A DNA stretch of 41,504 bases from a virus, in IMG/VR virus record IMGVR_UViG_3300008217_005059, positions 1 to 41,504 of that record. One strand, 5' to 3'. The position numbers and the translations under genes are program-made. The notes beneath the pieces are model-generated. The model made no database searches. It was not told the DNA's origin and saw only the letters and a program-made list of their open reading frames with translations. Shown here one piece after another: positions 35,928 through 38,773 of the stretch (positions are counted from its first letter, which is position 1; every line of letters starts with the position of its first letter).

Positions 35928-36630
35928 CCAAATAGCAACATGGCTAAACAAAGGCTACGCCGAAAAACTCGTAAAAGCAGCTACAGGGTATTGGAGCAAG
36001 TCGCGCAATTACGTTATGTGGGCTGTGCAGCAAAAAGACGAGCTGCAAAACGAAGAGCCAATTCTCGGCCTGCTAGCGTGGGAGCGACTAACGCAGCGGT
36101 TAAATAGTGAGCCGCTGGATCTCTACCGCAAGCGCGTACAGCACGCATTAGTCAATACAATTGACGCCGGAGAAATAGCAACCATAAAAGATATTTTTAA
36201 CCGGCTGGATCTCCAAGTCATAAATGTGCGCGAGCGAATAGAGGGCCGCGACTGGGATATTATTGCAATAGACATGACCGACTCAGCGCTAGCAAGCGCA
36301 TACGAACTATTGCCAGAGCTAATACAGCTATACGGCCGAACATGCCGCCGGTACGAACTAACAGTGCATAACTTGGCAGCAGTATCGCTAAGCCTTGGCA
36401 TAACGCATGTGCAATGGGATAACAACTACGTTAGCTCAGCAACAAAAATAAACGCAATAACTGGCATTGATCACGGCGTAGCCCACAGCTTTTTAGGGCT
36501 AGACGCACTAACAAGCAACACGCGCCGCCAAGCAATAAACATTGGCGTGCAGCACAACATTACCGCGCACCAGCATTATGGGTTTTTAAGCAAAGACGGC
36601 GGCATAAGCACCGCCAAGGAGCAACTATGA
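35920..36630 (+). CDS. I: tail protein I-like
   Basis: 236 aa. P2 gpI family, with VKAATGYWSKSRNYVMWAV near the start and LYDIAxIxLPELI-type helix ASAYELLPELIQLYGRTCRR. Links the baseplate to the tail fibre. Overlaps the next gene by ATGA. Confidence 0.85.
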   Translation: MANQIATWLNKGYAEKLVKAATGYWSKSRNYVMWAVQQKDELQNEEPILGLLAWERLTQRLNSEPLDLYRKRVQHALVNTIDAGEIATIKDIFNRLDLQVINVRERIEGRDWDIIAIDMTDSALASAYELLPELIQLYGRTCRRYELTVHNLAAVSLSLGITHVQWDNNYVSSATKINAITGIDHGVAHSFLGLDALTSNTRRQAINIGVQHNITAHQHYGFLSKDGGISTAKEQL

Positions 36631-37205
36631 ATCAGGCAATAACCGGCATAATGACCAATGCTGGCAAGGCATACATAACAACAGCAACGCTGCAAAACAA
36701 AGGGCTTGAAGTAACAGAGCTAGTGTTTGCAAACATACCCGGGTTAAACGAGCAAGCAGCCCGCAACCCAAACGAAAAAATGCCGGGCGGCGCACAAATA
36801 GTTTACCGCCGCAACATAGATACGTCGGGGTATGTTGATGCAAACACGGTCGCATGGGCAGTAGTGCTAGAGCAAGACATCGGCGACTTTGACTATAACT
36901 GGATAGGCCTAGTTACGCGCGACGGCACGCTGCTAGCAGTAGATTACTTACCGCTACAGCGCAAGCGACAAGGCGTAAACAACGTGCACAACCGCTCGTT
37001 CGTTTTAAAGTTTGCAGCAGCCGCAGCCCTAGCCCGCATTACCATTCCAGCGCAATCGTGGATGTTCGACTACAGCCCGCAAATTGACGCGCTAACACTG
37101 TTAGCAACCAGCAATGCAACGGCACAAATAAACAACATGCGCCGCACTGTGCGCAATTACTTTTTAAATAAAAACTTCAGCAATTTCAGCAAGGAACTAT
37201 CATGA
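36627..37205 (+). CDS. short tail-fibre collar protein (DUF3751-like N-terminal domain)
   Basis: 192 aa. GIMTNAGKAYITTATLQNKG and GDFDYNWIGLVTRDGTLLAV are the N-terminal domain of phage tail-collar fibre proteins. It stops after this domain plus a helical end and has no repeats or receptor-binding tip. It therefore needs a partner, probably the next gene, with which it overlaps by ATGA. Confidence 0.8.
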   Translation: MNQAITGIMTNAGKAYITTATLQNKGLEVTELVFANIPGLNEQAARNPNEKMPGGAQIVYRRNIDTSGYVDANTVAWAVVLEQDIGDFDYNWIGLVTRDGTLLAVDYLPLQRKRQGVNNVHNRSFVLKFAAAAALARITIPAQSWMFDYSPQIDALTLLATSNATAQINNMRRTVRNYFLNKNFSNFSKELS

Positions 37206-38419
37206 GCGCAGAGCAAATAAACCAGCTAGTAACCGCAGCCGACCAGCTAACAACAGCAATCGAAGGCAAAGCAGCCGAAATCGACAGCAAAACAACGGAG
37301 CTAGACCAGTTCGTAAAGGCCAAGGCGGACGAAATGGCAATCGTTGCATCAGAAGGTTACCGCAACGCAATCGAGCATGCGTCAGGTGGCCGCAATAAAG
37401 TGATCATCGACGACCAGGGCAATCCAAATGTAATGGTGGCAATTGCCCCGTTCACATACGAAGAGTTGGCGGAAAAAATTCAAGAAAAATACAGCGTAGA
37501 CTTAAACCTAGGCACTGGCATTCCAACCATGTTTATGCGCAACGGTGTTCAGCTAGGCGAAGTGTACATTGGTAAATACCTAGCATCAGCAGGAGCAAAT
37601 GGCGGCTGCAGTGTTATCGGTGGCGTACAGCCGCGCACATCAGTTAATTACGACACAGCAAAAGCACTATGCAACAACAAGGGCGACGGCTGGCACATGA
37701 TGAGCATTCACGAATGGGCAGCTATTGCACTGTGGTCTTATGCAAATGGCACAGTGCCGCGCGGCAATACAAACTACGGTCGCAGCCACGAAAACAAATT
37801 AGAAACAGCGCGCCGTGGCGACAACGGCTTGCCAGGCGATTCATCAGGAACAGCCAGAACCGATACCGGTAAAGGCCCTGCAACATGGTCGCACGACCAC
37901 ACCGAATGGGGCATTCAAGACCTAGTGGGTAACGTGTGGGAATGGTTAGACCAAATGATGCTAGACGAAGGGCAGATCATTACTACGCTTGACAACAACC
38001 CAGCAGTAATTGAAGAAAACTGGAACAAGCACACGGCGTTTTTCGATTCGCCAACGGCAAACACAGAAGGCACCGGCAGTGCTGGATCTCCAAAGCTTAG
38101 TAACAGCGTCACAAATCGCAATGGCCCAGTGGGTAATGATGCGCAAGAGCACCCAACGCTAAGCAACGGGCATTTTGCAGCAGTCGAAAAAGCGCTCGAC
38201 TACAGCAAAATAGAGCTACTACGCCGCTTGTTAATCGAGTCAGAGTCAACCACCACGGTTGGTGGTTACATCTACTGTCGAAATTATGGCAATCGTTCCC
38301 CGCGACGTGGCGGCAACTGGAGCAATGGCTCGCTCGCTGGGCTGGGCGCGCTCAGTCTGAGCGATGCGCGTTCGTATGCGAGCAGTGATATCGGTTTTCG
38401 TCCCGCTTTCTTTGCGTAA
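37202..38419 (+). CDS. C-type-lectin/FGE-fold tail-fibre tip protein with variable C-terminus
   Basis: 405 aa. Residues ~1-60 are helical coiled-coil-like, ~65-130 form a connector, and ~135-405 are a formylglycine-generating-enzyme-like C-type lectin fold (GDGWHMMSIHEWAAIALW, IQDLVGNVWEWL). The end RRGGNWSNGS...IGFRPAFFA is the usual C-terminus of DGR target proteins. It is most likely the receptor-binding tip of the tail fibre; a catalytic FGE role is unlikely as it is a phage structural operon gene. The last ~45 codons look like a DGR variable region (see that entry). Confidence 0.82.
   Translation: MSAEQINQLVTAADQLTTAIEGKAAEIDSKTTELDQFVKAKADEMAIVASEGYRNAIEHASGGRNKVIIDDQGNPNVMVAIAPFTYEELAEKIQEKYSVDLNLGTGIPTMFMRNGVQLGEVYIGKYLASAGANGGCSVIGGVQPRTSVNYDTAKALCNNKGDGWHMMSIHEWAAIALWSYANGTVPRGNTNYGRSHENKLETARRGDNGLPGDSSGTARTDTGKGPATWSHDHTEWGIQDLVGNVWEWLDQMMLDEGQIITTLDNNPAVIEENWNKHTAFFDSPTANTEGTGSAGSPKLSNSVTNRNGPVGNDAQEHPTLSNGHFAAVEKALDYSKIELLRRLLIESESTTTVGGYIYCRNYGNRSPRRGGNWSNGSLAGLGALSLSDARSYASSDIGFRPAFFA
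38282..38416 (+). other. candidate DGR variable repeat (VR)
   Basis: Starts near residue 361 (AAT TAT GGC AAT) and runs to the end of the gene. Candidate variable codons AGC (S374), AAT (N375), CTC (L378), AGT (S385), AGC (S387), GAT (D388), TAT (Y392), AGC (S394), AGT (S395), GAT (D396) all end in C or T and can arise from AAC/AAT by replacing A only. The block is adenine-poor and uses ctg/ggg/gcg codons unlike the rest of the operon. The IGFRP end is the invariant end. The template repeat is not in the window. Confidence 0.7.
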
Positions 38420-38439
38420 TTGGTTATTGAAATTTGAAC

Positions 38440-38457
38440 CCCGCGCGATAGCGCGGG
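38440..38457 (+). promoter_or_regulatory. GC-rich hairpin with GATA loop after the VR
   Basis: CCCGCGC (38440-38446) pairs with GCGCGGG (38451-38457) around GATA, a GRNA-type tetraloop. It is 21 bases after the stop codon. No run of Ts follows, so it is not a terminator. DGR targets such as that of phage BPP-1 have such a hairpin/cruciform downstream of VR that helps target recognition. Confidence 0.65.
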
Positions 38458-38485: not shown

Positions 38486-38773
38486 ATGTTTACATACATT
38501 TACAAGGGCACAAGCCACAGCAACACAAGCAGCGAATACATGCAATCGCTAGGTATGGACCAAGAGCAAATTGAATCTGTATTAAATCAACAGCAGTTTG
38601 AGCTAAGCCAAAACCTAGTAAAGCGCCAAGCGGCCTACAAAGCCGAATCAGACCCGCTATACATGGAAGCGCAGTTCGAAGGCACGCCAGAGTCACACCA
38701 AAAATGGCAAGACAAAGTAGCCGAAATTAAAGCGCGCTACCCACTACCAGAAAGCACAGCAGAAAATGCATAA
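38486..38773 (+). CDS. small protein after the fibre gene, possible fibre assembly protein
   Basis: 95 aa. FTYIYKGTSHSNTSSEYMQS then MDQEQIESVLNQQQFE looks like the small proteins often found downstream of phage tail-fibre genes. Too short and too different to call an Avd accessory protein of a DGR. ATG 38486 follows AAAAGGTAG. Overlaps the next gene by eight bases. Role inferred from place only. Confidence 0.6.
   Translation: MFTYIYKGTSHSNTSSEYMQSLGMDQEQIESVLNQQQFELSQNLVKRQAAYKAESDPLYMEAQFEGTPESHQKWQDKVAEIKARYPLPESTAENA

Follow-up and report, generated by a model that had tools for sequence, protein, structure and literature searches.

The antireceptor gene of the Pseudoalteromonas prophage analysed here ends in a sequence that was written by a retroelement, and the record that carries the gene holds no such element. 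For practical purposes it is certain that the 117-nt stretch at 38291-38407 is a variable repeat (VR) of retroelement origin. The DGR behind it is of the published VHML/ACA1 type, and this kind of system is already known. We consider it probable that the VR was written recently and is now an orphan, having been split from its Avd-TR-RT cassette by loss and recombination.

The antireceptor gene and its variable repeat

The window (the whole 41,504-nt stretch of DNA analysed) is a fragment of a P2/HP1-like, K139-type Pseudoalteromonas prophage with bacterial flank at its left side. It has the inverted portal/large terminase arrangement, contractile sheath, P2-like baseplate, integrase and CI-like repressor of a P2/HP1-like temperate myophage. 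The left host flank carries acyl-CoA dehydrogenase and DUF6136 genes and shares 96% identity with a single Pseudoalteromonas genome, the genus being assigned by way of strain FUC4 (G034), and ACA1 DNA aligns to 65% of the window's tail end with 83% identity. The relevant features are as follows.

36627-37205 (+), gene for a tail-fibre hub attachment protein, directly upstream of the antireceptor gene (PHROG 13714 tail fiber, E=5e-75; counterpart of ACA1 gp41 by gene order)
37202-38419 (+), gene for the antireceptor, a DGR variable protein of 405 aa with an FGE-sulfatase-type C-type-lectin fold (PF03781, PHROG 2889, PDB 5vf4_A)
38291-38407 (+), VR of 117 nt, counterpart of the template repeat (TR) at L006:11636-11752, with A-site-biased differences from the consensus TR
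38408-38439 (+), last part of the gene with the invariant spacer that follows the VR, on the initiation-of-mutagenic-homing side, TTCTTTGCGTAATTGGTTATTGAAATTTGAAC, identical among relatives
38440-38457 (+), hairpin/cruciform CCCGCGC-GATA-GCGCGGG with a 7-bp stem and a GRNA-type loop, a DGR target-recognition element (from covariation and the rule in PMC3240598)
38458-38485 (+), empty cassette slot, holding only CATAACTAACAATTTAAAAGGTAGAACT (ribosome-binding site of the next gene) where L006 and L008 hold Avd-TR-RT (from junction comparison)
38486-38773 (+), gene of 95 aa, 3' of the cassette in relatives and counterpart of ACA1 gp45

The antireceptor gene is the last tail/fibre gene of the prophage. 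Its product matches PF03781 (E=2e-6) and PHROG 2889 (E=4e-155), and residues 49-404 resemble PDB 5vf4_A (E=6e-47), a DGR variable protein of Nostoc. The homologous protein of ACA1 is annotated as antireceptor, and the antireceptors of VHML and VP58.5 are also alike. The protein ends in ...DIGFRPAFFA, and the VR occupies the 3' end of this C-type-lectin-type gene, as it does in DGR targets.

The TR used for comparison was external to the window, being a consensus from the reverse transcriptase (RT) gene of relatives L006 and L008. The VR differs from it mainly at template adenines, with changes at 10 of 26 A sites and at 2 of 91 non-A sites (Fisher p=2.9e-6). Both non-A changes sit at the 5' edge, at TR index 7 and 13; the T to G change at index 13 is also seen in other VRs, that of ACA1 included, and from index 14 onward the VR agrees with the L008 TR at every non-A site. 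A content drops from 32% in the gene body to 14% in the VR, and homologues vary at the proposed variable codons.

Much of what the first-pass annotation had proposed from the letters alone is borne out by these results. It had described a candidate DGR variable protein shaped by adenine-specific mutagenic homing, which the A-site-biased VR of this C-type-lectin gene confirms against the TR of relatives; the placing of this gene as the last fibre gene of a K139-type Pseudoalteromonas prophage agrees with gene order and with the phage module matches; and the abrupt switch to A-poor sequence is found in the base composition. A comparison across relatives, which it had recommended, showed homologues differing at the proposed codons, with A-only variation. 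Its figure of ten or more altered AAY codons was slightly too high, since the window VR departs from 8 of the TR's 11 AAY codons, with the third base kept in 11/11. Likewise, the block that it had delimited at 38282-38416 was correctly located, but the mutated part is slightly narrower.

The spacer that follows the VR (38408-38439) is identical in the window, L001-L008, L031, L034 and L035, and the hairpin starts 33 nt past the VR end. Across relatives the bases of the hairpin stem change with pairing kept, and the loop is G-R-N-A in all. DGR targets are recognised by a GC-rich hairpin with a 7-10 bp stem and a 4-nt GRNA loop at 4-34 bp from the VR, and both the pairing stem and the GRNA-type loop are required in BPP-1 (PMC3240598); the window hairpin agrees with this rule. 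In the cassette-free L031, L035 and L016 a different inverted repeat with a loop of 5 nt, GCGCGAT...ATCGCGC, stands in place of the GRNA hairpin; it is terminator-like and probably not a homing target.

The cassette slot in the window and its relatives

Directly 3' of the same gene, L006, L008 and ACA1 have an Avd-TR-RT cassette, about 1.6 kb long. In L006 and L008 the first part of the RT gene is the TR, a copy of the VR that is rich in adenine and in frame, and the cassette proteins match RVT_1 (E=3e-21) and bAvd (E=3e-32). The 41.5-kb record contains no near-copy of the TR (VR and RT queries match only the VR itself), no DGR-type RT (no PF00078; RT query P0002 matches the VR only), and neither an Avd ORF nor room for one between 38419 and 38486. 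Cassette DNA from L006 matches the window at its two ends and the VR only. The record certainly lacks the cassette, and the prophage as a whole likely does too. As the whole Avd-TR-RT cassette is absent from the slot, the VR is probably an orphan, although an RT might lie elsewhere in the host cell, of which the record covers only a prophage fragment.

The search was extended to Pseudoalteromonas as a whole, where, with a positive control that worked, the VR gene was found in 3 of 109 genomes and the RT in 0 of 109; nor was a DGR RT found in three sequenced host genomes of orphan-VR phages. Other RTs were rejected as DGR RTs. The RT of FUC4 (G034) has a C-terminal region that is TIR-like by eye, those of P. 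arctica (G035) match RT query P0002 at only about 30% and come without a TR, and that of the P2-like phage KS5 is not DGR-like according to its authors. The FUC4 RT (L040, G034:C14) has 531 aa and is perhaps a defence RT, its TIR likeness being judged by eye.

These results bear on what the first-pass annotation had expected of the phage as it stands today. The working diversifier that it implied is not supported, RT, TR and Avd all being absent from the record. A template repeat, to be sought in the same genome, came instead from close relatives. The annotation had named two observations that would speak against its reading: the lack of both a near-copy and an RT, which is the case for this record, and identical residues at the proposed codons of homologues, which is not. 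Host-receptor switching, the purpose that it suggested, fits a DGR-written VR, but in the window phage such switching would at present be an inherited result and probably no current ability.

Slot states are scattered over the phage family. The slot holds a full cassette in L006, L008, ACA1 and ACA2, and is empty, with one shared junction, in the window, L001, L003, L004, L005, L007, L034 and L054. Avd is kept in L002 and L030, with a reverse-strand ORF in place of TR and RT, whereas L153 has Avd and TR with 66 nt in place of about 600 nt of the RT core, and the RT of proACA1-A is frameshifted (PMC10612066). Other cassette-free forms, with a different 3' end, are found in L009-L011, L016, L031 and L035, while the VRs of L012-L015, L017, L018, L022, L027 and L028 are more distant and eroded and have no intact target hairpin; older orphan VRs gain non-A changes and lose the hairpin. 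Target-bearing records without an intact mutator outnumber intact-cassette records in this family.

Two of the damaged forms have further peculiarities. The reverse-strand ORF (L002:11661-12323, and in the same place in L030) has a weak HNH_3 match, below the cut-off (E=2e-4), and might be a homing endonuclease that has invaded the slot. The TR of L153 (L153:10552-10668) differs from the TR consensus at seven A sites and one other, all within index 42-95, and resembles a template that has received a copy of VR-type sequence. The TRs of L075 and L132 look eroded at adenines too.

The DGR of ACA1, ACA2 and proACA1-A (PMC10612066) resembles the window in its homologous antireceptor (74% identity), gene order and GATA-loop hairpin, and resembles L006 and L008 in having the TR as an N-terminal extension of the RT, with about 6-7 non-A sites differing between their TR and that of ACA1. 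However, ACA1 and ACA2 carry the Avd-TR-RT cassette (with the RT frameshift in proACA1-A) and the window carries none. In the Vibrio phages VHML and VP58.5 the variable protein is 62% identical to that of the window and an RT comes next in the same place, VP58.5 also having Avd at the matching place; their hairpin has a GGTA loop, and they differ from the window in the presence of a cassette and in phage backbone. In the Bordetella BPP-1 DGR (Mtd, Avd, Brt), too, a tail receptor-binding gene ends in an adenine-specific VR and a GRNA-loop hairpin comes next, but the TR of that DGR is separate and non-coding, and the system is active and experimentally proven, whereas the window is without RT. 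Remote or trans-acting DGR targets have a VR that does not adjoin the RT, the RT lying elsewhere in the same genome. The window is like them in that its VR is apart from an RT, but no such RT turned up in the host genomes of the window phage's relatives.

How target and cassette probably came apart

We propose that an Avd/RT DGR of the VHML/ACA1 type, whose RT gene opens with an in-frame TR, wrote the antireceptor VR. Forms of the slot in which the cassette is present, damaged or missing would have been swapped among related prophages by homologous recombination, presumably with exchange points at the conserved VR 3' end and hairpin and at the ribosome-binding site of the next gene. Such swapping would explain why phages with the empty junction carry unrelated VRs. 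The receptor specificity of the window phage would then be the product of past mutagenic homing, now inherited unchanged.

Seven empty-junction phages were compared pairwise, L005 being left out as a mosaic. In every pair, 13-20 of the 26 A sites of the VR differ, as would be expected of independent draws; in the same phages the mean difference at non-A sites of the VR is 2.3/80, and the flanks differ by roughly 3-20% per 50-nt tile. The VR is also fresher than the gene that carries it, with 4-fold site differences at 187/1118 (17%) in the gene body, compared with L008, and at 2/137 (1.5%) in the VR, compared with the TR (nominal p=4e-8, the rows being related). The gene-body tree requires 5 changes to account for the empty state and the downstream tree requires 6, numbers that shuffled labels give as well. 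Most forks of these flank trees are weakly supported (2/12 and 5/14 starred), and the well-supported branches alone force 1 and 4 changes, respectively.

A single loss followed by vertical descent is ruled out, because VRs behind the shared junction differ like independent draws and because the slot states are dispersed over the two flank trees. A clean microhomology deletion from the L006 arrangement is also rejected, the empty junction having the extra bases TAACA. The junction alone fits both a loss and an ancestral empty slot, the empty junction being no clean subset of the L006 sequence. Slot exchange between phages, together with repeated damage, is the best account of the pattern of VRs and trees.

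Several distinct damaged states exist (empty; Avd with the HNH-like ORF; the internal RT deletion of L153; the frameshift of proACA1-A), so cassette loss recurs. The slots could accordingly have been emptied by many separate and recent deletions in situ, each freezing the VR then present. We hold this to be unlikely, because eight phages have one identical junction, which is no simple deletion of L006 sequence and which repeated independent events would not readily give.

Fixed specificity or rewriting in trans

Judged from the sequences, the best reading is that the tropism of the window phage would be fixed unless machinery acts in trans. Near-identical pairs without a cassette have identical VRs in 6/6 cases, a small sample of 3 clusters in which within-cluster pairs are not independent. 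Near-identical pairs with a cassette differ at 11-19 of 26 A sites in 5/7 cases, the VRs being identical in the other two. The VRs of L009-L011 are identical although this cluster retains both hairpin and homing site, so that having an intact target was not enough by itself to keep them varying.

One alternative is that orphan VRs are still diversified in trans, with the Avd-TR-RT of a co-infecting or co-resident phage, related or even foreign, writing those that retain homing site and hairpin. Both are intact in the window and in six other orphans with the same junction (L054 has a mismatch in its stem, at one place), and transplanted targets that carry IMH and hairpin are acted on by the BPP-1 machinery (PMC3240598). 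Moreover, the cassette-free L005 has a mosaic VR (L005:4669-4785) that partly matches a foreign TR. Its index 53-107 follows, at template-distinguishing sites, the TR type of L088 and L108, which are phages with another DGR, and the L005-specific differences from that TR fall at TR adenines in this interval. From index 40 on, 10/20 A sites are changed relative to the L088/L108 TR, with a site at 45 that fits neither template. Up to index 44 the informative sites are of the window clade, except the index-13 change and site 32, which again fits neither, and the homing site is that of the window clade. IMG genome 2802429360 labels two records, one with an L108-type DGR and the window-clade L153 with its broken RT, so both kinds appear to occur together in a single host.

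The L005 mosaic could have come from homing in trans or from short-tract recombination, and recombination between VRs explains it equally well. Identity of VRs among near-identical orphans (L009-L011 with hairpin and homing site among them), the three sequenced orphan host genomes in which no DGR RT was found, and the non-A changes and hairpin loss of older orphans all argue against continued rewriting, which we regard as quite improbable. Receptor-binding tips are generally known to evolve fast, but ordinary divergent selection without a retroelement can be dismissed almost entirely, because the changes are at template-A positions, third bases and 4-fold sites are unchanged, relatives have the template inside the RT gene, and the target hairpin is present.

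As far as the literature that we searched shows, the orphan-target state favoured here, its frequency in a phage family and the exchange of slots are undescribed; our searches found no described orphan VRs, an absence that is no proof. DGR surveys start from the RT, and targets without an RT are therefore invisible to them; targets remote from the RT are already known to be missed by RT-anchored surveys (PMC8144416). With cassette-bearing and cassette-free relatives, nature supplies a comparison between diversifying and fixed antireceptors on phage backbones that are otherwise alike. The authors of the ACA1 study (PMC10612066) left open whether a DGR repays its cost, and this prophage family offers a ready test of that question and of whether mutators act across phages. 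If they do, the mutator would be a shared good, with Avd-TR-RT cassettes circulating apart from their targets.
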